Source of the DNA: Tetradesmus obliquus
Lineage: Eukaryota; Chlorophyta; Chlorophyceae; Sphaeropleales; Scenedesmaceae
DNA: 64,000 nt
Assembly: GCA_030272155.1 (NCBI GenBank)
Contig: CP126195.1
Location: 5,377,001-5,441,000, forward strand
Direction of reading: 5' to 3'
This document shows positions 3,588 to 61,734 of the stretch, piece by piece; within the stretch, counting starts at the first letter, position 1, and the number at the start of each line of letters is the position of its first letter. The notes beneath the pieces were generated by a model, which worked only from the letters and a program-made list of their open reading frames with translations, was not told the DNA's origin and did not search any database. A program made the translations under genes and the position numbers.

Positions 3588-6500
3588 TCACTGCAGCAGC
3601 ACCACCTGCTGCACCAGCCCCAGGCCCATCTCAGCAACCTCACCCAGCACCTGACACACATTGGGCACCACCAACCCCACATGCTGGCCCCGCCTCACCA
3701 CCCCAGCACCCTTCTGCTTGCCTCCTGCTGCTGCTGCTGCTGTCCCTGCTGCTGTTGCGCCAATTGCCAGCATCCCATGGGCGTGATTTGGCCGCAGCGG
3801 GGCTGGTAAGAAGGCCTCAGGCTTCCATTTTATGCCGATTGCGCCAAAGCCTCCAGAAGGGTCCGCACAGAATGTGGCGAGGTGGCCGTAGCGCTCGCAG
3901 CAGAGGTTTAGGAAGAGTGACACGGGGTCAAACCCTACCAGCAGCTCCGAGCGCAGCTTGTCAGCTGACTTTGTGAGCAGCAGCTGCAAGAGCAGGAGAA
4001 GAGAGAGTGCAGGCGCAGGGCAGGGAACGAATGGTGTCAGCATGTGCATGGCATCATCAGCAATACAGCTTATCGGCAGTATATGCAGAGCACACCCCCA
4101 TACACGCAGATGACCGAGCGATATCATGAAAACATTCTAACCCTCACCTGCTCAGGGTTGCTGCGGAGCAGCACGGGAGGCGTTGGGAGCCCACATGCAA
4201 GACAAATTCGTTCTTATACATGTCAACATACTGTAAACACGCAAGCACGCCCACGTGTCAAGTGTAAAGCAGCATTGCGCAGCCCTAAGAAAATGCCTCA
4301 CCTGCTCAGGGATGCTGTGCAGCACAGACCCCAGCACCCAACCACTTACAAAGCACACGCTGCTTCACAGGCCGCACAAAAAACAGACAAAACGCAACTT
4401 TTTGAATCCTAATTTCCTCACCTGTTCAGGGATGCTGCGCAGCACAGCCCGGGAGGCCTTGGGAGCCTCAACCAGCCCCAGCCCAGCCGCAGCAGCTGGA
4501 CCCTACACCATAAACTATAACCTGAAACCATGTTACACATGCACATTCGGCCTCACCTGTCCGGGGATGCTGCGCAGCACAGCCCGGGAGGCCTTGGGAG
4601 CCTCAACAAGCCCCAGCCCAGCCGCCAGCAGTGCACCCAGCGCGCCATGCGCACCGCTGCCGCTGCTGCCGCTGCCAACACCATTCACTGCTGCAGCCTG
4701 GTTTTCCCCGTCATTGTGCTTCCGCTTCTTCTGTGCCGCCTGATCATCTGCTGCAGCCTCTGCTGCTTCCGTGGCTGATTGTAAGATTGCCTCGCAGCGC
4801 CGCCGCTGCGCCTTCAGCTGCTGCTGCAGCTGCGCAGCCGCCAGCGGATCACCCCGGCCGGCAAATGGCAGCGCCTCGGGCCTCAGCAGCACCCAGGCAT
4901 CAAAACCTGCGAGGTTTGGCCCGCAGACAGACCTCCAGGCCCTTGCTAATGCAGCCATCTCATCCCGCTGCTGCTGCTGCTGCTGCAGCTGCTGCTGCTG
5001 CTGCTGCTGCTCAGGGGAGGCTGCATTGTCTGCATGTGTTTGCTTCAGCTTCTTGGCTGCGAGCCGCCGCTGCTGCTGCTGCAGCTGCTGCAGCTGCTGC
5101 TGCGCCAGCGGTGCATCTGGCCCCAACAGCAGCAGCTGGCTGAGCTGCTGGTGGGCTGCGCGGGCCAGGCTGACAAGGTGGTGGGCCACTGACTGGCTGG
5201 GCTGGTGGGCGGTCCTGCAAGCAGCCAACAGCAGCAGCAGCAGCAGCAGCAGCCAGCAGCAGTGCATTGGAGGATGACAGCTATATGACGATTTATATGA
5301 CAGTTCAGATGCAAGTCACACCATGTGGCGGGCCACTGACTGGCTGGGCTGGTGGGCGGTCCTGCAAGCAGCAGCAGCGCAGGATCGATGTATATTACAG
5401 CCGTATTTGCAAAACGTAGCTACATACATACTAGAGATATAACATAGCGGCAGGTGCAGCGCTGCAGTGCTGAGTGTGCGGGTGCTGAGTAGTGTGTGAC
5501 GGGCTGGCTGGGCCATGCGTTGCAGGCAGCAGCATGCTGCTCAGCAAGCGCAAGGCATGTGCTGCAGAGGATGCCTGGCAAGCAGCTGCACATCAAAAGT
5601 AGTGTTCCGGCACTAGGCATGCTGCACAGCAGGCAGCATGCGTGCTCGGCAGGCAGCCAAGTCAGGTTGCCTCACCATTTGCTGCTGTGCAGGTCGTAGG
5701 GGGTGGCCAGGAACATGCCTGGCAGCGTGCCTGCTGCGCGGCGCGCCTCAAACTCCACCTGCAGCGGGCAGCAGCAGCAGCAGCAGCAGCAGCAGCTGAT
5801 GTTCAGCTGTGAGGACTGAGCAGATGTGTCTTGCATAGCATGGGTCAATCACATTGTGATGGGCAACAGCCATTGCTTCAAGATCAGCGAAGTGCAGCAA
5901 ACCACTCACCGCAACAGCAGCTGAGGCAGACACCGAAACAGCATCAGTCCTTCTCACCACATAACAGTGTGATAACTATTCAGATTCATCATCTGCTGTT
6001 TAGTTTTTTCGTGCCTCACCTGCAGGGCCCTGCGTGCGTCTGGCTTCACGTCCCGTGCTGGGTCGATCAGCAGCGGGGCAGCAGCCCAGGGGTGGCTGGC
6101 CAGCAGCTGCAGGAAGCGCAGCAGGCCTGGCACAGCAGCAGCAGCAGCCGCAAAAGAAGAAGACACTGAGTATGTTGTGTGGCACTGCAACATATGCACG
6201 TGCTAGTTACACGCTGCCCATGTTATGACAGCAACGTTGTCTGCTCATTTGGCCGGTGACAGAGACACTGGAGGTGCGGGAAAAGTGCCAGACACTCGGC
6301 AGGTGTGAATTTGATCGCAAACAGATGACCGCACAGCTATGTCACAGGTGCTTCAGCAACCACTGTTGCATGAGGCATTGTAAGCTCACCGCTGATGCGT
6401 GAGGCTGGTGGCGGGCAGCTGCTGGGCCCCTGGAACACGCCAGCCACCAACAGCTCAACTGCCTCCTCACACACCTGATGCAATGGCGGCGGCAGCAGCA

Positions 6501-7355: not shown

Positions 7356-8955
7356 TGAGAGAAATAAGACAAGTTTACTAAGGGGTGGGGGTGCTGAAGG
7401 CCGCCTCCAGGCTGCTGATGAGTCCGTGGTGCCGCGACAGCAGCAGCGGCAGAGGCACGTGCGAGCCTGCTGCTGCTGCGTCAGCGCCAAGCATGGGCGT
7501 GTCCCTGCAGGAGCAGCAGCGTACAAGCGCATGACTTCAGGCGGTAAGATGAGACTAGAAGCATGTGCCGTAAGGCAGCTGCCAGGTGTAGCAGCAAACA
7601 GCAGTTGCACAAGACAGAAGCAGCAGCAGCAAGCGGCAGCCTGTCATAGCACTGGCCGACACCATGCACACTTGTAAAAAAACTCCGTTTGGTAACATGA
7701 ACACTGTTGAGCATACCAGAACATGACAAATCTAACAGTCTTTGCCGCTCCAGCAACCACCGCTCACCTGCCCATCAACAGCAGCAGCTTGAATGCAAAG
7801 CCCTGCCACAATCCTCCACGGCGTCCTCAGCGACACTTGCAAGCAAAACCCCTGCCAAGTTATTACGCTGCGACCCACCTGTCCATGAACAGCAGCAATT
7901 TGAATGCAAAGCCCTGCCACAGAACCTCCACGGCAACCTCCGTGACACTTGCAAGCCAAAACCCCTGCCAAACAAAACCCCCGCAACCCACCTGTCCATG
8001 CATAGCAGCAGCTTGAATGCAAAGCCCTGCCACAGAACCTCCACGGCATCCTCCGTGACACTTGTAAGCCAAAACCCCTGCCAAACAAAACCCCCGCAAC
8101 CCACCTGTCCATGCATAGCAGCAGCTTGAATGCAAAGCCCTGCCACAGAACCTCCACGGCATCCTGAGTGGCTGTTGCAAGCCAAAACCTCAACCCCTAC
8201 CAAGTAAAACCACCGCAACCCACCTGTCCATGAACAGCAGCAGTTTGAATGCAAAGCCCTGCCACAAAACCTCCACAGCATCCTCCGTGGCTGTTGCAAG
8301 CTGAAACCCTAAACCCTGCCAAGTTAAACAACCGCAACCCACCTGTCCATGAAAAGCAGCAGTTTGAATGCAAAGCCCTGCCACAGCACCTCCACAGCGT
8401 CCTCAGTGGCTGTTGCGTGTGCGCCGCAGGCAGCAGCAAGCGCGTCTGCCAGCTGCACACCAAGCGCTGCCTTGGTCTTGGCGAAAGCAGCAGCATCAGA
8501 CGGCATGCGGCCTGCAGATCAGAGATGACGGGACACAGCACCATGCAGTGTTAGCAAAAGCTACCCTTTTTCGCAGGGTGCACCCCAAGCGCTGCCTTGG
8601 TCTTAGCAGACGCAGCAGCATCACACGGCATGCAGCCTGTGGCAGATGGCAGGATCAACACAAAAAAAAACACAAAAAACTGCTGCTTGAAAATCATGCT
8701 GTTGTATGCTGCTTCGAAAGTGACTGCACACCAAATCCAGCCCAGCCATGTACCCAAATAATACACTTGCCGTTGCTGCCTTAGTTTTGCAACATTCCGC
8801 ATGACCCAACCCCAGCTGTTAGATGTGCAGCATACAGATACACCCACCCTCACATTTGATATGCCTGTCTCAAATATGTGTTACTTGTAACCTCACCTGT
8901 GCCTTCCAGTTGCACCATGACATCAATCGCCTCCAGCACCCGCGGCACCTTGCCC

Positions 8956-8988
<33 letters not shown>

Positions 8989-9586
8989 CCAGACCCTAAA
9001 CCCTCCGCCAGCGGGTGCGGTTCAGGGTAGAAGCAGCACGTGTGGCGGCTGACAGCAGACAGCGGCTGCACACCAACCACTTTCAAAGCTAGCTCAGACA
9101 GCCCCCTCAGCTGCTTGCCTAAAGCATCTAGAGCAGCATCTGCTGCCCTGCTGGCAGCTGTAGCAGCAGCAGCGCCGCCGCTGCTGCCGCCCAGCGCTAC
9201 AGCCACTGAAGCTGTACTGCCTGCTGTACCGCCTGCTGTACCGCCGGCTGTACTGCCTGTTGTACTGCTGACAGGAGTCCAGGTCAGCGCATCCTGCAGC
9301 CCCTTTGTACTGCCTGCAGGGTGTAGCAGGGGGTCCAATGCCATGGAGCAGGATTGTACAATTGTACCGCCTGGCAGGTGGCGCAGCAGCAGGTGTTGTA
9401 CTGCCATGTCTGGCACCCTGTGCCGCTCCCCTGGTGCCACACCCTCCCACACGAGTGCCTCATTGATCTTGCCGTCTTGGAATCTATGAAAAACAGCAGC
9501 AGATTGTTACAAAAAATGACTGTTACATCTCAATTAGCCTCCCACACTAGCACCTCGGTGATCTTGCCATCTTGGAACATGTTATC

Positions 9587-9631: not shown

Positions 9632-10413
9632 CAGATGACCACATGACTGCACATATGTCATGTTGGTTGCTGATGTGCTACATTGCATGTGGTGGCCTGA
9701 GCTGTTGCAGCAGGTTGTGAAAGGCAAGCAATCCAATGTGTCGCTCAACACCTCCCGCGTCTCATGCAGACCTTTCCAACTGCTTCCCACAGCGCCTCAA
9801 CCACAACAACAAGCATAAACCCTGGGCGTTGAGACCTAAACCTAAAAAACCTAACAGCTTAACCCCACCTGCGCAGCTCCGACTTGTCTCCCCACAGCGC
9901 CCTGAACTTAGCAGCAGCAGCAGCATCGTCAGCAGCAGGGCCCACATCTACTGCCCTCAGCGCAGCCACAGGATCTGCAATCACACCCACAAGAATGCGG
10001 CGAGGCACAGCCACAGGCCCCACTGCTGCTGCTGCTGTTGCTGCTGCCGGCTGCTGCTGCTGCTGCTGCTGCTGTGGTGAGTAGGATGGCGGCTGGCGTA
10101 TGGTTTTGACCAGCAGGGCTCTGGTGGTTAGGGCCTGGCGCACTAAGCCCTCAACCTGAGCCTCTGCAAGCCTGCAGGACAGACCACACAGCAGCAGCAG
10201 CAGCAGGTGGTAGTGTGATGACAGTGGATTGCAAGATGCTTATGAACTGTCAGCATGAAACAGCAGCAGCACCAGCATGCTACGCCAGGAATAAGCAGCC
10301 CTTGCCCTTGCTGCACATGTGCAATTACTGATTTTCTGATTTGAGAGAGGGCACTGAACGTATGACATAGCAATGTGTGCGGATGCCTCACCGCATGGGG
10401 TGCTGGTCTCCCA

Positions 10414-10451
<38 letters not shown>

Positions 10452-11907
10452 GGCAGCTCCACACTCCACCAGTAGTCAAACAGCCCAGCTAGGCCCAGCC
10501 CCGGCCTAAACACCGCGTCATAAACCGCATCAGGCTCCAGATCAGCGCGGGTTAGGATCGCCAAAGACCTAGCCGCCGCCATCTGAGCCAGCTGCAGGGA
10601 AGATCTGGACACTGCTGCTGCCAGATTCAAGTGTCCGCTGCAATCCAGCAGCACAGCATCAAACGCCTTGCGCGCCGCCGCTGCTGCTGCTGCAGGTGAC
10701 GGCAGCTGCTGCAGCTGCTGCTGCAGCTTCTGCTGCAGCTTGGCTTGATCCTTGGACACCTTTCCTGGGACTGCTGCTGCTGCTGCGTTTTGTCGCTGCT
10801 CTGCCTGCTGCAGCAGCCTGAGCTCTACAGGCACACTACCGTCACGTGCAACTGCCAGGCTGCCTTTTGACCAGGCCTTTTTGTCAGCTAGCAGCTGCAG
10901 CGTACAGCGCAGCTGCTGCAGGGGACTCATGGCTGCTGCTGCTCCAGGCCCCGACTGCTGCACTGCTGCCAGCAGCAGCTGCGCCAGCAGGTACCCACCA
11001 AAGCCATCTGCTTGTGCTGCTGCAGCAGCAGCGAGCGCCGCATTACTGCTGCTGCTGCTGCAGGGGTAGCAGGATCGGCTGTCTGCTGGCAGGACCCCGT
11101 GTACTGCTATGCCCTGCTGCTGTGCCCAGAGCTTCAACAGCAGCAGCGCATCTGCAAACCTGGGGCCTGCTGCTGCTGCTGCAGCCTGCAGCCGTTGCTG
11201 CCCCAGCAGCAGCAGCATGTCTTGCAGGACACCTGCATTGTAATGCGGCGTTGGCAGCAGATCCTGCTCCTGCTCCTGCTGCTGCTGCTGCTGCGCTGCT
11301 TTCTTGCTGCTGCTGTTGCCGGCAGCTGTCACCCACCTGACGTTATTCCTGTCCGGTGACAGCTTTGAAAATTCAAACGCATCCAGCCCGACAGCTGGCA
11401 GCAGCCGCAGCACTAAACCCTCCTGCCCAAACCCTGCTGCTGCTGAACCCTGCTGCTGCAGCGCTGCTGCTAGGGCTTTGGGGTTTAGGTGCAGCAGCAG
11501 CACTGGCCGGCAGGGGTCCCCTGCCATGGGTGCTAGCTGCTGCTCTGCTGCTGCAAACAGGGGGTGTGCTGCAAGCTGTGCTGCAAGTGCTGACAGGAAG
11601 ACTGCGCGCTTGGCATGGTACCTGTTTGCACATGGATTTGCAAAACATGGTGTTGCAGAACAGGCAGCATGCAGAAGTGCCAGGCCTTGGAGCAGAACCG
11701 CTTCTATTTGTTTGACAAATTGTGTGAAAACAGTGGAAACAAATCAAACTCATGCGGCACAAGCCAGGGACTGCGCTACGTCTAAAGCCGCATACATATA
11801 GAAAAGCACGATGCACATGATGAGCACAAAGTGAGCGCGAAAGCAGCATCATGCAGCTGCAGATAGGACGCTGCGGCCACCACCACCCTACACACTCCCC
11901 TGACACC

Positions 11908-22225: not shown

Positions 22226-22625
22226 GGCGCTGCTTTTGAAGCGCTGCTGGCAGCTGAGAGCCTTGCTGCTGTTGAAGGTTATGCCGGCAGCTGACAGCAG
22301 AAGGCTGGCATGGTGCGCGCCACGTCGCGGCTGGCTGCGCAGCTGCCGCGGAGTTTCTGAGGCGCTGCTTTTGAGGCGCTGCTGGCAGCTGAAAGCCTTG
22401 CTGCTGTTGAAGGTTATGCCGGCAGCTGACAGCAGAAGGCGGGCATGGTGCGCGCCACGTCGCGGCTTGCTGCGCAGGTGCCGCGCTCCTTTCGAGGCGC
22501 CCCTATTGAGGCACTGCTGGCAGCTGACAGCCTTGCTGCTGTTGGTGTTGTTGCTGGCAGAGGTGATGCCGGCAGCTGACAGCAGAAGGCTGGCATGGTG
22601 CGCGCCGTGGCGTGTTACCGAGGCC
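22226..22625 (+). repeat. Three extra tandem copies of the CtpA 3' end
   Basis: The terminal coding segment around CAGAAGGCTGGCATGGTGCG (true copy at about 22162) is repeated at about 22297, 22432 and 22582, with period about 134-150 bp. The first extra copy even retains the stop TGA. The spacers carry GGCAGCTGACAGCAG. Confidence 0.9.
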
Positions 22626-25661: not shown

Positions 25662-25699
<38 letters not shown>

Positions 25700-26054: not shown

Positions 26055-26131
<77 letters not shown>

Positions 26132-32100: not shown

Positions 32101-32157
32101 CCGTGCAGGCCACATGGCCGCTGCCCGGCACGCGCAGCACCTCCTGCCCCGTCACCT

Positions 32158-36860: not shown

Positions 36861-40614
<3,754 letters not shown>

Positions 40615-43475: not shown

Positions 43476-44480
43476 CTACCTGCGCGTTGCTGCTGCCTGG
43501 CGTACCAGCTTCTGCTGTGTATACGCCAGCTCCTCCTCCCACGCAGCACCCAACTGCTCAGCTAGCTGCAAATACCCAACCTTCTGCAGCAGCTGCAACG
43601 TGGCTTGCTTGTGGGGCTCGTAAAACTGCACTAGCTGCTCGAATAGCCACGCAGGCATGGGCTGATCATCCGGATAGCTGCGCTCGTGGATCTTTACGAA
43701 ATCGATTCTGCGGTTGATTTCGGCGGGATCGAGGCCCAGCCAGCCGACGAGGTGCTCCAGGTGCTGCTTCGGGGCGAGGCTGAAGGCTCGGCTGGACCAG
43801 ATTAGGGTTTGCTCGGGTTCGAAGTGGTCGAACCAGCGCTGCAGGTGGAGGTCGTACAGGCCCTTGTAGAGGTCGTACTCATTGATGTCCCTGCAGGGCC
43901 GGTGCAGCGGCGGCGGCGACAGCAGCAGAAGCGGTGGCGGCAAGAGCAGACGGTCCAAGATTTGCTCAGCATCAGGCAAAACCCCGCTTTGAAGCGCAAA
44001 AGCCGGCAAGACTCAAGGGTGGCAGCAGCAGGGCGCACAGTCGGCCTACAGGCTGGCTGCTTCAAGCTTGCAACAGTGGATGTTCCTCTGTAAGCGAAGC
44101 CTCTGCCAGTTGATTGGATGCCCAGCAAGTGACGCTAAGGCATCGCAGGCAGGGATTCAGCCTTGCTCTCACCGTGACACTGGCAGTCCAAACAGGCAGT
44201 TGGCCAGCTGTGTGTAAGCTGGCACAGGCGAGTGCCTGCTGATGCGGGCGCTGCATTTGTTGAGCGTGCTCATCTGCCTGCAAGCCGGCACAGCAGTTCC
44301 ATACAAAGCGGGAAGCGAGGACAGGCTGGTCAATGCTGTGCCGAACTTGACTGTGCATGATCTGTTCTGGTGACCCAAACAGATCACATTCAGTGCCACC
44401 ATGCTTGCTGAACTGTCCTGCAGCTTCTGTGGACTGCATTTTACTGCATGCTACATGTAAACAACCAGTCTCTTACTAGA

Positions 44481-44512
<32 letters not shown>

Positions 44513-47456: not shown

Positions 47457-47524
<68 letters not shown>

Positions 47525-50500
47525 TTGTCGGCTTAGGAAGACGAGGCATGTTGTGTGTGTGGAGTTGACCAGCAGGTTGGCCTGCAATGGTGTGTTACAT
47601 CGGACCAGGGGCAGCAGCGGCGGCCGGGTGAGGCAAGTGAGCTTGAGATACATCGTGATGTTGCTGTGGGAGCCACAGGTGGAATGCAGCACAGAAACAT
47701 GCCGCGTACTGCTGCTGTTGCACATGTTTGCAGCACACTGTGTAGCAGCTGACAGTTGCCCTGTTTGCTGAGCATGCTGCTGACCAGCACATTCATTGGG
47801 GCTGTCATTCTTCAAAACGCATTGATAAAGCACCTGATCACCAGCTGCCTTCACATCAGAATGGCAGAACACCAGAACACCCACCATGACCAGCTGGTGG
47901 TTGAGCGCCTGCTGGTCGTTACATTGTCAAAGCAAGCATTTGTTTCTGACTGGCGACGGCTACTTAATAACACAGTTCAAATGGGCTTGCTGACAGCTCA
48001 CCATGACCAGCTGGTGGTTGAGCGCCTGCTGGTCGTCAAACATGAGGTGCATGTTGCGCTGCGCATGCGCCAGCATGTGGCGCAGCACTGCCCTGCTGCC
48101 CGCAGTGGCGTTGAAGAAGGCCAGGCCCAGGCAACCTGGTAAACGAAATGACAAAAACATGACAGGCGGGCAGGCAGTCAGGGCAGGCAGGGAGGCAGGC
48201 AGGGCAGGCAGGCAAGTGTGCTGAGTGCAGTGCTGCATACATAGAAGAAAGCCAGGCCCAGGCAGCCTGCGCAAACGGTACCGGCAGCGGCAGCGGCAGC
48301 AAGATCGACATGCAGGTGCAGGCAGGCAGGCACGCAGGCAAGCTACATGCATGGTGAGCGCAGTGCTGATCCGATGTGTGCATGCCGCCCGCCGTGGTGT
48401 TGGAGAAGGCCAGGCCCAGGCAACCTGGCAAACGAAACAGCAGCAGCGGCAGGCGATCCAGGATGTGTGTGCAGAGTGACGAAGGCAGAGGGTGATGAAG
48501 ACAGAGCTCTGTCAGGCAAGCCGGTTACACAGCAGGTGACACTGCAGTGCTGCCCCCCTGCTTCCAAATATTGATGACTGTGAAGCCCCAAAGTTCTTGC
48601 AGCAGGATGTTTTCATATAAAGCACAACACAAACTGCGCAGCAGCGAGTGTGCAGCAGAACCTTGCATCTCAACCACAATCACCTGATGTCCTGAACACC
48701 CTGTATGTCTCAGGCGGCCACATGCCCTGGCTCAGTGCCATGTCAAAGCCACCCGGCTGCGCAGCAGCCTTGGCCTGCATGTGACACAAGCACATGGTTA
48801 TGCAGATGTCCACCTGGCATGCTGTGCCAATGTTTGGTGCACTACACTTGGTTGTCGCATGTCCTGCCTGATTTGGACAATCCTGCTGTGCCCAGTGCTA
48901 GCATGCACCACTGCATATCAGCATTGCACGCAGCACTGTAGATGCGTACGAACATAAAGCATGCTGTTGTTGGTGGTTTCAGATCACCACCGCACTCACC
49001 TCGATGTCAGCCAAGGCATGCCTGAACCAGATGGTGTCCAGGTCTGACATGAAAACAGCATTGAAATTGAATCGTACGGTATGCAGCAGTTTGACATTCT
49101 TAAATACTGCTGCTGCTGCTGCCGCCGCACCCACCTCGATGTCACTCAAGGCATCCCTGAACCAGATGGCGTCCAGGTCTGACATCACCACCGGCACGCC
49201 AGCGCCCACAATCTCGTACAGCATGCGCATGCGCTCCACCCACAGCCTGCACAGCAGCAGCAGCAGCAGCAGATGATGATGATGATGATGATGTATACGT
49301 GCACGAGCATTCTGTGCAGTGGTTCAAGCTGAGGTGCACATTAGCTGAGCCAGATGCAATGCTGAAGCAGCATGATGCAGCAACACACATCTTGCAGTCC
49401 TGCCAAACCGGCACCCAAAAAGCATGCCCTGCAGCTCTGTCACAAGTGAAAGATCATTCAAGATGCAGACCTGCAACTGGCATGATGCCGCTCACGTGTT
49501 CAGCACAGGGTCGTCATTCTTGTTCATGATGGTGATCTCCGGTGTCTCCAGCGGCGGCATCTCATACACCGACGGCCCCATGCCATCCACAATCGCCTTC
49601 ACGCTCGCCGCACTGCTGCCTTTCGTAACCACCAGCACTCTCGTCAAATCCACTCCGCCAGCCTGTAGCCAGTTCAACCAGTTTTCGAGTACTGCCTCAT
49701 AGCCGTTTGATACTTCGGTGAGGATGATGGGGCGAGCTGGAGGGATGCTGCCGTCCCATTCGGGGATGGCGCGGGCCGTGTACAGTGCCACCTCACGCAG
49801 GCCGGTCATGACGGCCGGTGCGGCCAACCAGCTTTGCATCTCTGCGGGCATGAGTGCGGGTGCAGCATCGGCAGTGGTGGTGGGTGCGCGTGCAGGCCGG
49901 CCAAGGAAGGTGCGACCTCGCGCAGGCCGGTTGTGACGGCTGGTGCCGCAAGCCAGCTTTGCATCTCTGCAAATGCCAGTGGGGTGGCGGCAGCAGCAGC
50001 GGTGGCAGTGGTGGTGGTGTGAGCATGCACAGAGCGACCTCTGGTGAGCCGCAGGCCGGTCATGACGGCCGGTGCGGCCAGCCAGCTTTGCATCTCTGCG
50101 GGCATGAATGATGGTGCAGCGGCAGCGGCGGTTGTTGGAATGCAACGGCGGCTGCAGGGCGGCCATGACGACTAGCACTGCCAGCTGTCTGCAGCCTGTT
50201 CCATAATAGCAGTAGCAGCGCTGGCAGTGGCAGCATAAGATTACAACTATTTTTGGAGGACGAAGAGAGTTGAGCCGAACACGCCAGCTGAAGGCAGCAG
50301 TGCTGTGCCTTGAACTTTGCAACAGACTCTGGCTCAGTGCCAGAGAGTCCTGCAGCTTTGGCAAACGTTTCAAGCCGACAAACAACACAGAAGTGTAGCC
50401 AGGCCCGCTTACAGGCCAGTAACATATGCAAGTGAGCGCAGCAGTGCCTGCCGCATTCATGAATTACATTTGGAAGTTACTCACCCAATGGGCTTTGGCT

Positions 50501-52445
50501 GCGGTAGTTGAATGCCTCCAGTGCTCCGCCAATGGATGCGTCAATGTTGCGGATGGCTGCCGCCAGCACCTCATCGTCAGCATCCCAGGCGGCCTGCAGC
50601 AAGTGGCAGCAGTTATTTCAGCGAGGGCAGCACAGCAGCGTGTGTTGGCATGCTCAGCTACTGATGCCAGTGGCATGCAAGACATGGCTGCCACGCATGC
50701 ATTGCTGCCAAGCAACAAACTCAGACGCCACAGCCTATCTAGTTGATCGCCATCTGGAGCTCGCGGCTTTAAAACGCTTCTGTATGCGCAGCTGGAAGCA
50801 GATGTTCTGGTTTGCGGCCTAAGTTTGGCATGTGTCTGTCTACTGTACACATGCGAACAATTTCAGAGATGCTGGCTGGTGCTCACCTTCCACCTGTCTG
50901 TCTCGCACTTGCGCGGGTCAATGGCGGCTGCTGCGCGCCTGACGCTGGCCTGGTTGCAGGGCACGCCTGCGTTGCTGAACATGGTCCGGATAGCAACGTG
51001 GATGCTGGCTGGATCACAAAAGTCCTCCAGCCTGCAGATGCAGCACAGCCCAGTGTTATGTTCTGTAGCACAAGAGGGTCTTTATAGCGGCATAAATGCT
51101 GGCTGGGTCACAAAAAGTCCTCCAGCCTGCAGGCAGAGCACAGTGAACAGTGTGAACTTCTCATGAGCACGTGCTGTGCTGCACAGTGAACTTCCTGGTT
51201 ACTCGAGCTGCACAATGATGTTGCTGACAGCCTCGATCTAGCCTCGATCAAGATCTTTGCCAAGCACAGCGTGCCAAATACCATGAAACAACCAAGCAGA
51301 ACAGCCAACCCTGCCCACCCACCGTGTTACGGAGTACTGTCCCTTCATGCCCCAGCCCGCCTCAATGGCCCACTTAGGCAAGCAACAGCACGTGAATAAA
51401 TTGGAGAAATGCACCACAACCCACCGTGTGATGGAGTACAGTCCCTTCATGCCCCAGCCTGCCTCACTGGCCCACTTGGGCAAGTGACATCCATCCAAAT
51501 GCTACAATAGGGTGCCTCTACACACAGCTTGTCAAGTCTATGCCCTGAAGAATTCAAGTCTTCAAAGTTCAAAATGCCAACAACTCACCGTGTGATGGAG
51601 TACTGTCCCTTCACGCCCCAGCCCGCCTCAGTGGCCCACTTTTTTGCGTTGAGGTTGACCTGGGCCCAGGCCCCTGCAGCAGCCTTAGAGAAGTGGTGCG
51701 TGGTCAGCTGCCAGTCGCTGTACTCCCTCCCTGCAGGCACAGCAATTGGAAACAGCACAACATTCATAAAACGTGAGCAATATGAAGCAGGCAATGCAGC
51801 TGCCAGTGGCTGTGCTCCCTCCCTGCAAGGGTGCAGCAGCTTGAACTCATCAAAACATGCGCGCAGACATGAAAGTGCGCATTGAATGCGCATTGGATGC
51901 GCAAAGTGAGCATTGTTACACAGCCAATGCAGCTGTCAGTCGCTGTACTCCCTCCCTGCAGAACAGCAAACAGACATGCATGCAATGGCAGTAATCGAGT
52001 AATACATGCAAAGTATGCACTGTTACTTCAAGTCGCGCAGCAGCTGGCTGCCCAGCTGCGGAGGAAACCAAGCAGAGTCTGGGTGCTTGTTGCATATGCT
52101 GGACGCATGCTTGGCATGCAACATGCATGCAGGTGCTTATGTGACATCAACCGCATGCGGTACCAATGTCTGCTGCTGTAGCATGTATAACCATGGCATG
52201 CAGCACTAGCTGGGCTTCTTTCAGGTGCAAAGCAACGGCAGCAGCAACAGTGTCAACACACTGAAAGGGCACACCAGCATCTAACACCACAGCAGCACAC
52301 ACCCACAAGCATACCTGCAAAGGTCTGGATGTAGTAGCGCTGGAACTTGCGCGTGGTGCGCAGGTTGGTGCTGTTGAGGTTGCTCAGCGCCACGTCACGC
52401 CCGTCACGCACCTCGTGGATGACGTGCAGGTTGGGGAACACCTGC

Positions 52446-52502
<57 letters not shown>

Positions 52503-53934
52503 CAGACAGAATCCGCGGGTGCAGCTGCACGTCGTTGTCACACACTGCCCGCGGACATAAATGGCCATACAGGTGTGCTGCAGCAACTGCTGCACAGCCT
52601 GCCAACATGTTCTGCTGGCTGCACGTGCACTGCCTCTGCTGCACATGGTTCTGTCCGTGCATCAAGCCCGTGGTCAAGTGCCAAGCATGGCTGCTATGCC
52701 ACTGCTGCTGCTGCTGCTGCTGCTGCTTAGGCATGTCATCCTCGTGGACAGCCTCACCCTGTACAGGAAGGGCAGCGTGTAGATGGCCACAATCAAGCAA
52801 CATCAAATGCTACTATGCTGCTGCTGTTGCTGTTGTATCACCTCACCCTGTACCGGAAGGGCAGACTGTAGATGGCCATGATACAACACTACTAGAAGCT
52901 AAAGCTGTTGCTGGCGCTAATGCAGGTCCTTCTCATCATCATTATTTTACAACCAAATAATCCTCCTGCATGTCATCCTCATTCATAACACCTCACCCTG
53001 TACAGGAAGGGCAGCGTGTAGATGGACTGCGGCTCCTTCCAGCCCCACACCGCCACGTCATCAGGCACGCTTGCCAGCAGCTCCTCAGCAGCCTGCGCGC
53101 GCAGCAGCAGCAGCAGCAGCAGCACCAGCAGCAGCAGTGGCAGCAGCAGCAGCGGCAGCAGCAGCGACAGCAGCAGCGGCAGCAGCAGCAGCAGCGGCAG
53201 CAGCAGTGGCAGCGGCGCAGGTGGTGGAAAAGCAAGCACAATTAAGACAATCAACGAAGCTTGATGCTGAAATTGACCCGCTTCAGTGCGCTAGTGTTGC
53301 AGCTCATCATGCACGTACTCCGCATCTGCTTATGGGTGCCGTCGACGTGCTCAACGGTCGCAGTGCAACCTTGGTGGTTATGGCCTCCTGCTGCTGCTGA
53401 AGCTTCTGTTTTTCATAGCGGGTTTCCTACTCTGCTGCTTTCTCCCCTTTCTTTGCTGCTGCTGCTGCTGCTGCTGCAAGTTTCTAGTGCCCGATTCTGT
53501 AAATGTCATGTTGCTGTTGCTACTGGTGCAAGTCAGCAGGCGTTTTTGCAGCAGAAACACGCCGTCCACTTGATGTGGCTGCTGCTGCTGGTGCTGCTGC
53601 TTCCGTCACAAATATAAACGTGCATCAGCAGCGCTGCCTACCTGTATGTGTCCCTGCAGCAGTTCGCTGTACACGTCAGCGCTGAGGCTGTCCAGCCGGT
53701 AGTCAGCAGGGCTGGCACGCGTCTCCCAGATCAGGCCAGACTGGCTGCCTGCAGAAGCGGAACGGCGGGAGGGGCATATCCGTGACAAGCAGTGCTTGTG
53801 CGTAGACCACTGCTGTTGTGCATCAACTGTTTGTCAACGCTACTGCCGCTGCAACTGTCTCGCACTCATCAATACAGCGGCCGTTTGTCTGCACTCGGCT
53901 TGAGATATGCTGCTAGCACTTCAAACCAGGCCTG

Positions 53935-53979
<45 letters not shown>

Positions 53980-54249
53980 AACTGCTACTACTGCTGCCTC
54001 CCGCCTCAAACCTTCCATAAGCACAGCAGTCACTGCCTCGCACCTGGCAGGCCGAATGCGGGCGTCTCCTTGACCCTCTTGATGAACACATTCGAGTCAA
54101 ACTCCTTGTTTGTATCTGGGTGCATCCACACGCCTGCTGCTGCCAGCAACGAGTGGATGTTGCGGGTGCCAGAGCCTGCAGGAGACACAGCGTGGCAGCA
54201 TGCAGGGTGGCAGCAGGATGTGTTCAACATGACATGCAGCTGAGTATTG

Positions 54250-54280
<31 letters not shown>

Positions 54281-55107
54281 CAGCAGCGAGTGGATGTTGC
54301 GGGTGCCAGAGCCTGCAAGGGCACAAAGACATGCAGCTTTGACAGGACATGCAGCTGAGTAGGTCTACTGCTGCTGCTGCTACCAGCAGGGAGTGAATGT
54401 TGCGGGTGCCACAACCTGCACATGCACAGCGTGGCAGCGTGCGGAATGGCCGCAGCAAATGTCAACAGGACATGCAGCTGAGCAGGTGTACTGCTGCTGC
54501 TGCCAGCAGGGAGTGGATGCTGCGGGCAGCAGAGCCTGCAGGCACAGGGTGGCAGTGTGGGTCATGCTATCACAGCATGCGGCTGGGTGGGCGCATTGCC
54601 TCAGGCGCTTGGCAGTACAAGAGCATCAATCCTTTTGCTGCTGCTGCCGCAGCTGCAGCACCTGCTGCTGCCTCCGCCACCGCTGCTTCAGCTGCTGCTG
54701 CTGCTGCTACTGCTGCTGCTGCTGCTGCTGTTGCTGCTGCTGGTGGTGGTGGCAGTGTACTTTCTATTTCAGCTGCTGACCGGACTCCTCCACTTCTGCT
54801 GACGTTCCCTGCACACAGGCTATGCTTAGATGGTAGTAGCAGTTGTGGCATGCAACCGTGCATGCACTGCGTGTTTCTTCCATGACACATCTGCAATGCA
54901 GCTGCAAAAGGGCTCAAAGAACTTCATGTTTTCTATGCCAGGTGTACTAGGGTACTATACCTGCAGTTCCCACAATGACAATGACACGCTTCTCCCGCTT
55001 GTGTGCTGCAGCTCCTGTGAACCATCCTTTAGCCTCCTGCTCCGCTGCTGCTGCTGCTTCTGCTGCGGTTGCGGCCCCTGCTGCTGCTGCTCCTGCCACT
55101 GCTGTTG
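43476..55107 (-). CDS. Sulfotransferase-GT77-sulfotransferase multidomain protein, 17 exons, N-terminus unresolved
   Basis: Exons: about 55107-54961, 54175-54044, 53748-53642, 53092-52997, 52441-52315, 51730-51589, 51031-50887, 50593-50485, 49841-49496, 49246-49135, 48774-48684, 48135-48002, 47435-47180, 47004-46710, 46306-44926, 44667-44519, 43890-43476. All 16 junctions keep frame (about 1390 residues). Domain 1 (1-335): VIVIVGTAGSGTRN (PAPS 5' loop), VWGWKEPQSIYTLPF, RDGRDVALS (3' loop). Domain 2 (335-648): a GT77-type fold with ILTEVSNGYEAVLENWLNWL, VMSDLDAIWF (DxD), LGLAFFNATAGS and DDQQALNHQL. Domain 3 (648-1393): LLIIAAPKAGTT, RFEATPAYL, REPVSRVISHF and WSSRAFSLAPKQHLEHL. It would act in the Golgi on sulfated glycans. 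A start codon and signal anchor must lie upstream of 55107. Three separate genes remain possible. Confidence 0.72.
44695..44905 (-). repeat. Two copies of sulfotransferase exon 16 5' edge
   Basis: ARYLxLLRxxVSR-like codons with CTGCAG acceptors recur at about 44897-44825 and 44763-44705 upstream of the true exon (44667). The SRVISHFNM region is degraded in both. Confidence 0.88.
46365..46438 (-). repeat. Copy of sulfotransferase exon 15 acceptor and 5' edge
   Basis: CATGCAGGTTCCACCCCCGG and codons for RLAGSFLTEMYIFDGN repeat the true start at 46306 (RLAGSFLKEMHIFDSN). Confidence 0.9.
47075..47135 (-). repeat. Copy of exon 14 acceptor and 5' edge
   Basis: TGCAGAGACCCGG and the codons following recur about 125 bases upstream of the true acceptor (exon first base 47004), with the ATCACCATCCCCAGA string conserved. 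Confidence 0.85.
47457..47522. repeat. (CAG)22 upstream of exon 13
   Basis: In the gene direction this is (CTG)n ending about 20 bases before the CACTGCAG acceptor (first exon base 47435). Confidence 0.9.
47540..47935 (-). repeat. Copies of exon 13 5' edge and exon 12 3' edge in one intron
   Basis: About 47585-47545 copies CTGCAG + ANLLVNST of exon 13. About 47930-47885 copies the exon 12 end (DDQQALNHQLVM, then GTGGGT). Both edges of the same intron are duplicated inward. Confidence 0.88.
48235..48445 (-). repeat. Two copies of exon 12 acceptor and 5' edge
   Basis: An AG acceptor followed by LPGxGLAF-type codons (TTGCCTGGGCCTGGCCTTCT; one copy starts CTGCCTGGGCCTGGCTTTCT) recurs at about 48270-48235 and 48430-48385 upstream of the true exon at 48135. 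Confidence 0.88.
48995..49072 (-). repeat. Copy of exon 10 3' edge plus donor
   Basis: The MSDLDTIWFRHALADIE then GTGAGT block duplicates the true GT77 DxD exon end (MSDLDAIWFRDALSDIE, 49135). Confidence 0.9.
49895..50115 (-). repeat. Two copies of exon 9 acceptor and 5' edge
   Basis: GCAG then AGATGCAAAGCTGG and LAAPAVMTGLR codons recur at about 50098-50050 and 49970-49920 before the true start at 49841. Confidence 0.9.
51085..51135 (-). repeat. Copy of exon 7 acceptor and 5' edge
   Basis: CTGCAGGCTGGAGGACTTTT and the following bases duplicate the true start at 51031. Confidence 0.85.
51320..51490 (-). repeat. Two copies of exon 6 3' edge plus donor
   Basis: KWASEAGWGMKGLYSITR and KWAIEAGWGMKGQYSVTR copies, each with an ACGGTGGGT donor, follow the true exon end at 51589 (KWATEAGWGVKGQYSITR). 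Confidence 0.92.
51805..51965 (-). repeat. Two copies of exon 6 acceptor and 5' edge
   Basis: CAGGGAGGGA followed by Glu-Tyr-Ser-Asp- or Glu-His-Ser-His-Trp-Gln-Leu-like codons recurs at about 51830-51800 and 51960-51925, upstream of the true start 51730. Confidence 0.85.
52446..52496. repeat. (CAG)16 abutting exon 5 acceptor
   Basis: In the gene direction (CTG)n runs into CTGCCGCAG, the acceptor of the exon starting at 52441. Confidence 0.9.
52750..52895 (-). repeat. Two copies of exon 4 3' edge plus donor
   Basis: ATCTACxxxCTGCCCTTCC and TACAGG|GTGAGG recur at about 52880-52845 and 52787-52750 after the true exon end at 52997. Confidence 0.9.
53100..53215. repeat. Interrupted (CAG)n upstream of exon 4
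   Basis: About 110 bp of CAG with TGG/CGG interruptions. In the gene direction it is CTG-rich and runs into the CGCGCAG acceptor (exon first base 53092). Confidence 0.85.
54265..54548 (-). repeat. Three copies of exon 2 acceptor and PAPS-loop codons
   Basis: CTGCAGGCTCTG (or the TGCAGGTTGTGG variant) followed by GSGTRNIHSLL-type codons recurs at about 54315-54275, 54420-54375 and 54540-54495 before the true start at 54175. Confidence 0.9.
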
Positions 55108-56325
55108 CTGCATGACAGCAAACAAAAGTCGAACACACTTCCAAGCACTATTCTATTAAATCCACGCGATGGTGTAAGTTATAAGTGGACGTTGGTGGAT
55201 GCCACAGTGTCTGCAGAGATGCTGTAGTGAAGGCTCATGCCAGTGCTGCCAACATACCATGCAAGGCGATCCAGAACACCGCCAGCGATACTACAGCTAC
55301 TCTGTTCATCAAACAGGGCTTTGAAGGAGTGTTTACTAGCTCTTCTCATCGGTTTGCATACTTGCGGGGTGTCCCGTTGTACTGCTTCCGTCAGCTTTTC
55401 TTAGCGCAGCATTGAACTTTGAACTTGATGGCCTGTTTCAAGAAATGGTATTCGATTTAGCAATGCAGCCAACGTGTTCGCAAGTTGCAAGCCGCTTCGA
55501 CCAGCCAGAAACGGAGACGTAATGGATCAGTCCGTGCTTTCGCGATCCATTTACATGGCGTGCATACATAACATGCAGCGCAAAGCAGCCTATACAATAG
55601 AACTACCAGTTTTCAAGCTCAATGAAGGTGGACCAGTGGTTGTTATTAGTCATCCCTCGCACACCTCCCGCCTTCAGCACCAGAGTCCCCTGCCCAAGAC
55701 TGCACGCAGGGTCCCAGCAGATATCATTTCACGAGCCCATCATGTTCGAGTATAGAATTGGCATAAGGCGTTGGCTTGATGCACCAGCTGGGCCCTGCCG
55801 GACACTTGTTCAGCACATGAGCTGCTGCTGCTGCTGCTGCAGTGCTCTCATGGCGTGCATTGCTGAAGGCTGTTGTGAATACGCATTTACTTCGCCAGGT
55901 TATGATTCATTACAGCTGTCGTGTAATCTTTCCCAGCAAGGTGTTGGACCCGGCCAGAATCATCAAGCATGCGCGCATGCACGGCGCTAGCCGGCAGCTT
56001 CGCAGGCATGCCTGCAGGTGTCTGTGAGGCCACTCCCCACTTTTCGGGATCCTTCAAAACAAGGTTGGAGAAACTCAAATCACTGTTTGAGAACGGTCTG
56101 TGCTTTACGTGGCTATGCATGCCATGATGGTCGTCTTGCAGCAGCACAGGGCCCCTCTCAATCCACCCGAAGCAGTACATGTGTCACCATCTGTTACACT
56201 GCACGACGCTGGCAGATTCAACCCAAGTATCGTGACGAAAACACATTTTTGAATAATCATTTTTGATATGTGTAAGAATAGAAAGCCCGACCGGAAGCAG
56301 CCTTCTGGCGGGCGCGCGAAAAGCC
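55108..56325. promoter_or_regulatory. Divergent region between sulfotransferase/GT77 gene and TBL-2
   Basis: It must hold the missing 5' exon of the minus-strand gene and the TBL-2 promoter. A minus-strand ATG frame at 56180-55887 (97 residues, with FSNLVLKDPEKWGVASQTP) is the best but weak candidate for part of that N-terminus. I could not find a donor joining it in phase. Confidence 0.35.
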
Positions 56326-59300
56326 ATGGGTACCGACGCAACAATATCGCGCCATGTAGGAGCTGCCATTATAGCACTGTTACTCGTGAACACATGCAGC
56401 GCCGAAGATGCGGTTGCTGTCGCTGCTGCCGATGCTGCAGCAGCGAACGACGGGTGTGCAGCGATGTACTCGCATGCTGATAGGCCTTTGCTGTTTGGAG
56501 GGGTGCACGGAGGCTGCACTGGCAGCAGGTGCCAGCCCCGAGGGGATGAATGGTGAGCAGTCGATGCAGCAGTTTCAATCTGCTGCTGGTCAGTGGCAGC
56601 AGTGACTTGATTTGGTCATGCTTCAGGGCATCTGGCACTTGTTGCAGCAGAAGTGTTGATTGCCTTTTTGCATCAAATGAAGGCCAGCTGCCCTGCCTGA
56701 CATCTGCGTAACACAAGGCACAGCAGCAGCAGCAGCATTGGCAGCAGCAGCAGCAGCAGCAGTCACTCATATCTTTTGCACATATCTGGTGGTGCGCATG
56801 CCTGTTGCAGGAGCGAAATCTGCAACCCAGAGCAGCAGCCCCCGCCCTTCCGCGGCTATGCCGTGTGCAAAGCAGGACAAACAGAGGAGGTGATGCAGCG
56901 CCTCAAACAGGAACCTGACTTTGCAACATTGAGCAACTTCACGCCTTGCGCGCTGTACAAATACCTCAAGGGCAGGACCCTCTGGGTGATGGGGTGAGCG
57001 AGCAGGGCAGTTGCAGTATGGGAAGACTATGGTTGCATCTGCAGCAATGAATATGGCTGCATCAATGACCGGGATTGGCGCTGCTGCCATGATCAGCGTG
57101 CACATGAGAAGTATTGTACGCAGCTCTGGCATACATGGGAGGTGTGACAGCAGCCTGCTGCCTCAAGTGGAGTGGCTGCCGACTGCATCAAGAGTACAGG
57201 GGTTGTTAAGCTGCACACCAGCAGGAGCACCAGCAGCAGCAGCAGCAGCACCAGCAGCAGCAGCATATAGATGCAGTTGCTCTGCAAGGATGGTGCCAGC
57301 TTTCACGTCACATTGCTCCAAGCAGCAGAGTATCTGCAGCACCTGCCAAAGCATGACCGCATCGTTCAACGTTCAAGGTGCCACTGCCGCTGCAACGCAG
57401 GGACTCCCTCATGCGCAACTACTACTATGCTCTGCGCTGCTTCATGCTGGACTTCTGGAACCACTCCCTTGGCGAGTGCGCACCAAACCCTAGGACAGCG
57501 GTTCAGCGCGCGATCTACAGGGCAGCAGACACCAACATCAGCAGCAGCATGGGCAGCAGGGCCGTCACAGATGTGCCAAAGTGCTTGTACCTGTTGGATG
57601 GCGGGCGTATCTGCTGGGTGCAGAGTGTGAGGGGAGAGGAGTTTGCGGCTCCTGACCAACAGGTAGGAGCGTGTGTGCTGCAGCTAGTATGACACAGGAT
57701 ATGGCACATGATATGACACATAGCATCACACACATTGCACATGAAACTGGTCCTTGCAAGTGCATGCTGACAGCGGGTGCATGCAAGAGGCCAAAAAACC
57801 ACCACCCTCCATGTGCAAGGGATCAGACTATGCTTGGCAGGGTGTGTAGCGTTTAGCAGGTGTACAATATTGCAAAGCAGTTGGTGACGTAAGCGCAAGC
57901 TCATCTATAATTCATCGAGTGCATTGTTGCTTGCAGTAGCTGTGTCAGCTGCTTTGTCACCACACCCTACGCTACTACACTCCTCTGCTGCGCTGACAAC
58001 ACAGACTTTCCCCATGCTGTCATGTTTCTGCACACTGCAGAACCCTGGCGTCCTGCAGGTGCTGCAGAACACTGTTGCCAGCTCAGATGACATCTTCTAC
58101 CTGAACTTTGGGCGCTGGCACTACACCAACTGCTACGGCCTGCAGGATGGCCCCTACAGACAGTCCCTGAATGAGCTGGGTGCACTGTACCAGGTGAGCA
58201 ATGAGCTGCAGGGGGCCCAGCGTCTTTATATGAAGTTGTTGGCAGCTGCTGCCTGCAGCTCACAACAGAGTACGTTGGTAAACGTGCTAACACTAAGACA
58301 TCTGCATGTGCTTTTGCCTAGCAGTCCTAATCTAAGCTATGACATGTAGCACAACATGCCCATGGATATTCCCAGGCTAGCAGGCTGCAACTTACCCTTT
58401 ACTTTTGCGTTTTCTGTGCCTGTTGCTGGCCTGTTTCACTGCCAGAGGACCAAGGCCCAGTTCCCCAACATGATCTTCAAGACCATCTCAGCCGACCACA
58501 CCGCCTGCAGGCCCAGCGCGGCCCTGGTCAAGGAGCAGTGCCTGCCCTCTGAGCAAGGTGAGGGGCGGCATGACAAAAACAACACAACAAAACATGCTGT
58601 TGGAGATGTTGTGTTACCTGGCAAATCAAGATTCGAGGTGTGTGTCCAATGCTGTGCCTGCCCTCTGAGCAAGGTGAGGGGCTTCAGGCACGTACATGCT
58701 TCTGAAAGTGGTGCAGTACCTATCAAGGCATAGAATGGGGCGTGGCTGCTATGCTGTGTCAGGCCCACCTCGGCCCTGGTCAAGGACCAGTGCCTGCCCT
58801 CTGAGCAAGGTGATGGGCGTCATGACAAAAACAACACAACAATACATGCTGTTGGAAATGTTGTACCTGGCTAATCAAGAATCGAGGCGTGTGTGCGTGC
58901 TGTGCCTGCCGTCTGAGCAAGGTGAGGGGCCACGTGACAGAAGAGAAACATATCTCCATGAAAGAGCAGCATACGATCAGTGCCTTTTGAGCAAGGTGGG
59001 GGGCTTCAGGAGCATACATGCTTCTGAAAGTGGTGCAGTGCCTATCAAAGCATAGAATGGGGCGTGGCTGCAATGCTAGTCAAGGATCAGTGCCTGCCCT
59101 CTGAGCAAGGTGAGGCGCCTAGAACTGGGAACATTGAATTGTGAGTAACCGTAGATGTACACATTTCTTGTGTTGAGTATGTTGTCTGCTGCTGGCTTTG
59201 GAGCAGCTCGTGACAGCTGTACTTTTGTTACTGTGCTGTGCTGTGCTGCAGGGTCGTATTCACCCATGCTGGCTTTGGAGCAGTGTGTGACAGCTGTTCT

Positions 59301-59404
59301 TCTGTCACCAAGCTGTGCTGTGCTGTGCTGTGCTGCAGGGTCGTATCCGCCAATGCTGGGGAGGCGTGTGGTCAGCATTGCAGAGGAAATCCTTGGCAGG
59401 TGAG

Positions 59405-59450
<46 letters not shown>

Positions 59451-59919
59451 GAGGCTAGCCACCACTGCACAACAGCAGTCGCAGTGCTGCCACGCACGGG
59501 GACTGAAGCCGATCTGAACCCTTAAGCGAGGTTCAGTAAACCTCCGCTACAGCACTGGCCTCTCACCGCCGGCAACCAACAGGCCTTCAACGAGTCCGCA
59601 TGTAATGCTTGAACAGCCTGCAGCTGCTGCTGCCGCCGCTGCAGGTACGGCGTGCCAATCCTTGACACCTACAACGTGACATAAAAAGTGCACCTGGGCC
59701 ACATCTCACCAACTGCCACAAACCCCACACCAACCAGAACACTTAAAAAGCCTGACTAGCCTCTTGCTGCTGCCGTTGCTGCTGCTGCTGCTGCTGCTGC
59801 AGGTACTGCGTGCCCGTCCTTGAAACCTACAACGTGACAAAAGAAGCACACCTGGGCCACATCTCACCCAATGTCACAAACCACATCAACATCTACGCCT
59901 GCAATGCCTGACCCGCATC

Positions 59920-59965
<46 letters not shown>

Positions 59966-61592
59966 AGGTATGGCGTGCCCATCCTTGACACCTACAACGT
60001 GACAAGAGAAGTACACCTGGGCCACATCTTGCTGCCGGAGGGAGGCGTGCAGGACTGCACACACTACTGCTCCCCGGGAGTGCCTGAGGTAAGACGGGCT
60101 GCTGCTGCTGTTGCCAGAGTTGATGCACTTCATGGTTGCAATGCGATTCACCGAGCATGCCCAGGACTGCAGACACTGCTGCTCCTGGAGTGCCTGAGGT
60201 ACGGCGTCTGGCTGCTGTATGTTGTGCTGACCTATCAGTCAAAGCATATGGGCTTGCCGTAGTGAGTCACAGTACCTGGATGTCGCCTGCGCCTCTGCTC
60301 TTCTGTTTGTCCTGCTGTAGATTTGCGCTGCATGGGCAGATTTGGATCATGCACCTGACGTTGCATTTAGTCACCTGATCCCACTAATGTAGTTGTTTGG
60401 TTGCGGCCTGCTTGCTCTGTCAGCTCAGCAGCAGCTTGTCTACTGGGCTAGTGCCTCAGTTTAAACCGACTGTGCTTACATGTCGCCTTGTGCTGCAGTG
60501 GGTGATGACGTACATGTACAAAGCTGTCCTCAGGTTTGCCATCGCCCCATTACAGCTTTTTTGGTGCCTCATTTTTAACCGATTGTGTCTGTATGTTGCC
60601 GTGTGCTGCAGTGGGAGATCTGGCACATGTACAAGGCCTTCCGCAAGTTTGGCATCACCCCACTGCAGCCAGGGGCAGCAGTGCAGGAGCTGCCGGCCTG
60701 CACAGCAGTCACTGACATCAGGCCTCCCCCAGGTGGGTCCCTGAGCTGATGAACGGCCATATACAGCATTTGCAATGCAGACAGTGCATTCCAACACCCC
60801 ACAGCGCAGAAGTCACAGACAACAGGCCTCCCCCCAGGTGAGCCTGACAGCTGACTATTTGCACTTGACGGCATGCTATGCACATATGCAGACAGCATTG
60901 AACACCCAACAGTGCAGCAGTCGCCGACATCAGGCCTCCCCCAGGTGAGCCCCTGAGCTGGTGATCGGCAGTATGCGGCATGCAGAATGCACATAAGCAG
61001 ACATAGTAATGCACGTACCGCAGCGCAGCAGTCACTGACATCAGGCCTCCCCCAGGTGAGCCCCTGAGATGATGAACGGCACATGCAGTACTATGGCGTT
61101 GATGCTACGGCGTTGAAGGGTAACATGATTATGATAAACGGCACATGCAGTGCTGTGCAAAGAGTGCAGCACACACACCACAGCATTGCTTGCTATGACA
61201 GCCCGCCATCCTGCCAGAGGTGCCACGTCACGCAACGTGATATGTTGCAGAAACTGCACAAGTGCAGTCGTGTTGGGACCCTTGTGTGACCAGTGCAGGC
61301 ATGTTGCTGCTGCACCCACTACACACTCCGTGCAACATTTCACAGCCTTTCCACATCTGCCTGCCTTTGTGCTGAAACCAGGCTGGTCTTACTACTTTGA
61401 TGAAGTCAGCCGGAACAAGAGCAGAGCAGCAAACAACAAGCCACACCAGCAGCCGAAGCAGCCGCAGCAGCCGCAGAAGCGGCAGCCACATGCACAAGAC
61501 CAGCTGCTGGCAAAGCAGCAGCAGCAGCAGCCTGGGACAGTTAGCCGTGTTCAAAGCACAGCACCTGGTGCTCCCAGCAAGCCTAGCAATCA

Positions 61593-61734: not shown

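Follow-up and report, generated by a model that had tools for sequence, protein, structure and literature searches.

Tandem copies of coding-sequence edges accumulate in the long introns of the green alga Tetradesmus obliquus

Many introns of Tetradesmus obliquus contain diverged copies of the edge of the adjoining exon. These copies lie in direct orientation next to their source, are anchored at the edge, occur genome-wide and are associated with greater intron length. They probably arose by small tandem duplications straddling the edge of a coding sequence, be it a splice junction or a stop codon, and such edge duplication may be a main route of intron growth in this species. The pattern was analyzed in one window, i.e., the whole stretch of 64,000 nucleotides (G000:C5:5377001-5441000), and in a sample of the 104.66-Mb assembly, which consists of 17 contigs.

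Exon models for the window were drawn separately from the repeats and comprise 57 introns in six genes, with support from homologs or paralogs; GT and AG are present at all 57 introns, as the modeling methods require. The exons of NOL6 (13 exons, 12 introns; 3588–13397, minus strand) were obtained from spliced alignments of the same-species protein P0121 (OEZ85_003130) and the Monoraphidium protein P0128, and those of a sulfotransferase/nucleotide-sugar transferase gene (“GT77”; 19 exons, 18 introns; 43476–55309, minus strand) from the spliced alignment of the T. obliquus protein P0131 (OEZ85_003134). For the 3′ part of the SUV3 helicase gene (12 exons, 11 introns; 25271–34905, minus strand) four homologs were used (P0001, P0002, P0003, P0008), all of which agree on the conserved exons. 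A CtpA-like protease gene (7 exons, 6 introns; 18381–22225, plus strand) was modeled from an HMM draft and its similarity to the PDB protease 1fc6. The partial models of TBL-1 (5 introns; 37985–40410, plus strand) and TBL-2 (5 introns; 57402–60671, plus strand), whose name was taken from the preliminary description of this DNA, are HMM drafts that have equal internal exon lengths of 126, 112, and 61 bp; paralog alignment confirmed TBL-1 and, in part, TBL-2. A gene finder earlier than the final HMM, which merged genes, was used to draft the CtpA, TBL, and transferase exons. Two HMM exons in CtpA (20018–20125, which repeats an exon edge, and 21102–21167) and one in the transferase gene were left out for want of protein support. 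Also not counted were two introns that the same-species proteins place within open exons, namely 10392–11621 of NOL6, where P0121 puts the extra intron, and 44926–46306 of the transferase gene, which was kept as a single open exon despite the intron in the P0131 alignment. The public NOL6 model P0121 lacks sequence at 10392–11621 and 8897–9483, both of which are open here and align to Monoraphidium NOL6, and the public annotation of this T. obliquus gene thus seems incomplete. Within aligned blocks, NOL6 and the transferase gene differ from the same-species proteins in 31 of 2,147 codons. The mean length of the 57 curated introns is 465 bp; the accessible text of PMC5966456 gives mean intron lengths of 462 bp for T. 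obliquus, 230–302 bp for three other Sphaeropleales, and 270 bp for Chlamydomonas.

Repeats were identified by self-comparison of the window after masking of 4,433 bp of short-period repeats, and direct and inverted pairs were counted within 2 kb. (CAG)n/(GCT)n microsatellites are very numerous in the window, in both exons and introns. The masked window yielded 124 direct repeat pairs and not a single inverted one. Local direct repeats were present in 34 of the 57 introns, and the adjacent exon edge was involved in every case; the repeat spans the junction itself in 33 of these introns and begins 1 bp inside the exon edge in NOL6 intron 5. Nothing was detectable by the same search in the other 23 introns. 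By row count, 25 of the 29 introns of at least 400 bp bear copies, as do 9 of the 28 shorter ones. Stricter mapping retained 79 copies at 45 junctions (40 donor-side and 39 acceptor-side, none inverted), with exonic parts of 20–102 bp and a spacing of 89–167 bp in 67 of the 79. The splice dinucleotide is retained in 76 copies (GT in 38/40, AG in 38/39) compared with 83% retention of dinucleotides in the neighboring exon part, a comparison that favors GT and AG through matches at alignment ends. These figures bear out the preliminary description, which had reported, from the sequence alone, that copies of adjacent exon edges lie in most long introns of the six named genes, that there are at least 80 of them, always in the same orientation and next to their source, with a typical period of 90–160 bp, and that GT or AG is usually kept. 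The 79 copies come close to its number; its range of roughly 30–150 exonic bases has to be revised to the measured one.

Repeat-free introns are on average 297 bp long (n = 23), compared with 605 bp for those with more than 20% repeat coverage (n = 28), and the Spearman coefficient of the association with length is 0.70. The repeat-free introns measure at least 150 bp, with a median of 273 bp. When repeats were grouped into clusters, 47 of 48 in the curated introns contained the junction and one was purely intronic. In 29 of the 79 copies the homology reaches into the intron by more than 25 bp. Being direct and adjacent, and holding an exon edge together with an intron edge, the 79 copies are tandem duplications spanning the exon–intron boundary. 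The same-species proteins of the two genes for which these are available (NOL6 and transferase) contain no copy-encoded sequence.

Copies were found in seven introns of NOL6, eight of SUV3, and 11 of the transferase gene, in introns 2, 4, and 6 of CtpA, introns 1 and 3 of TBL-1, and introns 3, 4, and 5 of TBL-2. In NOL6 intron 7 (array at 7765–8408, minus strand) the units of approximately 113 bp consist of up to 74 bp of the exon 3′ end, the donor, and the intron start; the array comprises 5.6 copies according to TRF (87% matches), includes five donor-edge copies, and overlaps the real exon edge at 8343–8408. By self-comparison and intron mapping, the 3′ edge of exon 4557–5214 was found to be copied three times in NOL6 intron 12 (4142–4503, minus strand). 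Acceptor-side arrays that overlap the exon edge are exemplified by SUV3 intron 6, with four copies of the acceptor and the 5′ start of exon 30387–30498 (30436–30952, minus strand), and by transferase intron 9, with two copies of the acceptor and the 5′ start of exon 49496–49841 (49785–50132, minus strand). SUV3 intron 9 also contains a minisatellite (28395–28791; 18 copies of a 22-bp unit, 98% matches) that adjoins an exon-edge copy and whose unit resembles, by eye, part of the copied edge.

Splice junctions are not the only edges affected. At the CtpA CDS 3′ end (22160–22606, plus strand) the repeated sequence comprises the final 66 bases of coding sequence together with the stop codon and 3′ flank, the first copy being 98.5% identical over 136 bp and representing the one near-identical full unit among the closely inspected cases. 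In a corresponding array at the SUV3 CDS 3′ end (24754–25447, minus strand), 147 bases of coding sequence are repeated along with the stop codon and 3′ flank, and there are partial copies besides. These are two of the four CDS ends tested; NOL6 and the transferase gene lack such copies where their CDS ends, and of two 5′ ends tested one gave only weak matches of 17–21 bp and the other none. Duplication thus also affects stop-codon edges, and its target is the coding-sequence edge rather than the splice junction as such. In the 23,180 bp outside the six models, which include some unmodeled genes, repeats were confined to the CtpA and SUV3 CDS ends and to an additional TBL-2 donor near 60732, which is followed by three downstream copies of the exon end (60700–61081, plus strand; TRF and a scan of the remaining window). 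The earlier statement that stretches without introns are free of copies therefore holds for nearly all of the remaining window, but not for the 3′ ends of CtpA and SUV3.

To cover the genome, 28 stretches of 10 kb were sampled at round-number positions on all 17 contigs. They contained 519 direct and 53 inverted pairs, and 51 of the inverted pairs fell into the two stretches L007 and L026, which have a G + C content of 0.48–0.49, are covered to more than 70% by near direct repeats, contain many inverted pairs, and represent a different kind of repeat region. These two were dropped from the intron, age, rate-correction, and by-place counts, which leaves 26 stretches with 384 direct and two inverted pairs. 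Introns were predicted by an HMM trained on the six genes, which in leave-one-gene-out runs recovered 46 of the 57 introns and added 12 false ones. Predicted genes scoring below 15 and two genes without an open frame were excluded from the intron count, and 40 exon–exon pairs from the clusters. Repeats were present in 83 of the resulting 211 predicted introns and involved the exon edge in 78 of the 83. Clusters with an edge numbered 98 compared with 10 without. In total, 188 copies were mapped in 19 of the 26 stretches, with GT retained in 51/68 and AG in 111/120. Five stretches (L005, L008, L009, L014, L022) contain no near direct repeats, and since four of them have predicted introns, the copy load must differ strongly among genes. 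Sorted by place, 87 of 117 clusters touch a predicted exon, 10 are exon-only, 8 intron-only, and 12 lie outside genes (82 kb). The last two groups are codon-periodic as well (z = 3.2 and 3.3), so some of them probably represent missed exon edges. By our own arithmetic on imperfect gene models, which assigns roughly 100 start positions to every one of 422 edges and corrects for the lower simulated detectability of purely non-coding repeats, cluster density at edges is approximately eight times that outside genes.

The exon-derived and intron-derived parts of the copies diverge unequally, contrary to the prediction for a single event. In the 29 copies with homology of more than 25 bp into the intron, the exon-derived sequence is 9.5% different with 3 indels in 1,463 bp, and the intron-derived sequence 22.6% different with 52 indels in 1,318 bp. 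The window shows no link between the two parts: among 25 copies whose exon part differs by less than 6%, not one reaches an identity of 0.8 on the intron side. In the sample, 18 of 48 low-difference copies reach it, compared with 25 of 30 simulated ones. Where BLAST alignments stop early, anchored alignment revealed residual intron-side similarity in 22 of 39 cases at p ≤ 0.2 and in 12 of 39 at p ≤ 0.05, which indicates that the copied units did span the junction. The units contained intron sequence, and their exon-derived part stayed much more alike.

Differences between exon and copy are concentrated at third codon positions. For positions 1, 2, and 3 they amount to 5.9, 5.7, and 16.8% in the window and 6.1, 5.9, and 15.7% in the sample, and copies compared with each other differ by 6.2, 9.3, and 18.6%. 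An artifact at third positions was excluded, as the intron-derived part of these alignments shows no such rise (18.4, 18.0, and 17.5%, with extrapolated phase) and the contrast in the window survives correction for base and context. A model-free test likewise found the mismatches of near direct repeats to be three-periodic in the window (z = 4.5) and the 26 stretches (z = 15.5), the periodicity in L007 and L026 being unclear (z = 1.8). The ratio of non-synonymous to synonymous differences (N/S) between exon and copy is 0.285 in the window (bootstrap over introns 0.21–0.40; 0 of 2,000 replicates at 0.5 or above) and 0.320 in the sample, compared with 0.62–0.66 in neutral simulation. For a same-chromosome copy that is non-coding from birth a value of at least 0.5 is expected, because the copy alone gains non-synonymous and synonymous changes alike. 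After base and context correction, third positions in the window fit two neutral lineages (202 vs. 189) and first plus second positions reach 0.67 (CI 0.54–0.84) of the expectation for a neutral copy alone. With the same correction the sample differs from the window, showing an excess at third positions and first plus second positions at the neutral-copy level (1.14, 0.91–1.38; 0.94, 0.74–1.16 without the five richest introns). The codon-position asymmetry itself is robust: either the copy changed too little or the silent sites of the exon too much, and today’s exon may not be the direct parent of the copy. The idea that copies start out with a fixed allelic divergence of about 0.09 was considered and dropped, as the youngest sample copies have S of 0.028 and N of 0.008. 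Conversion of exons by copies was rejected as well, since codons covered by copies show no excess of strain differences over the others (6/350 vs. 25/1,797). In two of these six codons, starting at 4562 and 49146, the intronic copy encodes the residue of the other strain, and the change therefore probably occurred in the exon of the genome analyzed here after copying.

The preliminary description attributed the pattern to a mutational process that prefers segments spanning junctions. For comparison, a null model was simulated in which duplications occur uniformly, purifying selection acts on exons, and copies decay neutrally, with similar detection applied. Starting from the present repeat-free introns it gave a junction share of 0.61–0.65, well below the observed 47/48 and 98/108; with ancestral introns capped, the share was 0.88–0.98 at 120 bp, 0.88–0.92 at 150 bp, and 0.72–0.81 at 200 bp. 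As the share depends on ancestral intron length, it is by itself no proof of a targeted process, for which a better argument is how rarely repeats lie elsewhere than at coding edges. The dominance of junction repeats thus stands, but the proposed preference is qualified by the stop-codon edges, by a null share close to the observed one for introns of up to 150 bp, and by the codon-periodic differences. It is possible, though somewhat unlikely, that no preference exists at all and that duplication strikes evenly, with exonic duplicates purged, intronic ones decaying fast, and exon-overlapping ones staying recognizable through exon conservation. The simulations with introns capped at 120–150 bp would allow this, and stop-codon edges should act like splice edges if selection only sorts tolerated events; however, repeat-free introns are as long as these caps or longer, repeats of this kind are few in non-genic DNA, and the observed N/S lies far below that of the simulation.

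The low N/S, together with the contrast in indels between exon-derived and intron-derived bases and the retained splice dinucleotides, could also be read as codon-level selection on copies that function as parts of alternative or poison exons. Stop codons (2 vs. about 5.7 expected) point weakly in the same direction. Such a function is nevertheless very improbable: the copies are partial exons with one edge each, 10 of 13 indels break the frame, their length not being divisible by three, offsets that are multiples of three are not in excess (25/79), and the same-species proteins of two genes lack the copies. Offsets and indels do not fit in-frame alternative exons in particular, and whole-exon duplication or mutually exclusive exons are rejected because each copy is partial and maps at one edge. 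Still less can be said for introns newly gained, either by tandem duplication of AGGT-containing exon segments as in the Rogers model or from introner-like mobile elements, which we regard as extremely improbable. Intron gain by tandem duplication has been published (described in the accessible part of PMC4974935), but this route requires an upstream exon-end copy at the 3′ end of the intron, and no copy offset equals the length of its intron; in a genome search that skips simple repeats, neither of the two introns used as queries matched anything beyond itself and its own exon edges. That the copies are assembly errors, i.e., haplotypic or stutter duplications, is scarcely credible. Divergence between exon and copy far exceeds the protein difference between the two strains (31/2,147 codons) and is codon-periodic, and copies occur in 19 of 26 sample stretches, which agrees with the preliminary view that the copies are no simple assembly stutter.

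Under the favored explanation, a tandem duplication, mostly with the observed spacing of 89–167 bp, would straddle a splice junction or stop codon. The outer edge, joined to the remaining exon, would stay in use and leave the protein unchanged, and the inner copy would come to lie in the intron or 3′ flank and lengthen it. Exclusive use of the outer edge seems likely and is backed by the same-species proteins of two genes. Because repeats away from the edges are much rarer, such duplications appear to be favored at coding edges, in arising or in surviving. The stepwise intron lengthening proposed earlier fits the twofold length of repeat-bearing introns and the genome-wide pattern, but an origin by plain duplication and neutral decay conflicts with the codon periodicity. 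Low-difference copies without similar intron flanks likewise speak against simple recent duplication, and an N/S below 0.5 against a copy that is non-coding from birth. Instead, the codon-periodic differences suggest that copy and present exon separated at a time when the copy was still coding. Because position in the array determines which copy codes, no exchange on the same chromosome could let a copy serve as coding sequence once it has parted from the present exon; exchange between diverged alleles, or function, could. The leading, if unproven, candidate is misaligned exchange between diverged alleles whose exons pair and whose introns do not, which would produce codon-periodic differences. 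An N/S below 0.5, as found in the window (CI 0.21–0.40) and the sample, is consistent with inter-allelic exchange and could also have other causes; a rough derivation predicts approximately 0.3 if copies leave coding service at a random time after the allele split. Exon-anchored inter-allelic exchange would account jointly for edge anchoring, codon signature, and unlike intron flanks. A more far-reaching and rather unlikely suggestion is that introns archive past alleles, with out-of-register rejoining at coding edges leaving the exon edge of the other allele behind the working one. Each event would then lengthen the intron and freeze former coding sequence.

Intron lengthening is poorly explained beyond the insertion of mobile elements, and a moderate-size genome in which many long introns visibly hold coding-edge copies makes the process countable, datable, and testable. 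The copies also form a natural set of decoy splice sites. They call for caution with gene finders, as the HMM mistook copies for exons and the public NOL6 model lacks homolog-aligning sequence. If the codon signature does reflect allelic exchange, introns would keep a readable record of past coding alleles.

Among known systems, introner elements resemble the process described here in adding intron sequence genome-wide, but they form dispersed families, whereas the two T. obliquus introns tested match nothing elsewhere. Minisatellite arrays consist of head-to-tail copies with a regular period; some introns analyzed here share this property, but their copies are anchored at coding edges, and many are single and diverged. 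The model of intron gain by tandem duplication (Rogers, 1989; Hellsten et al., 2011, as described in PMC4974935) likewise duplicates exon sequence and leaves the protein unchanged, but it turns a duplicated exonic AGGT segment into an intron, whereas the units found here include existing intron edges or stop codons. In the potato RdRp gene a tandem duplication across an intron–exon boundary created a new intron (PMC4974935). This is, in the accessible part of that source, a single intron-creating case, whereas T. obliquus has many copies per gene that lie inside introns and add length. The accessible part of PMC5552973 makes no mention of introns, and no prior report of such density, stop-codon edges, or codon signature was found in the literature searched, which lay outside subscription journals and preprints. 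Single boundary-crossing tandem duplications are thus known, as far as the accessible part of PMC4974935 goes, and what T. obliquus adds to them is their density, their occurrence at stop-codon edges, and the codon signature of the copies.
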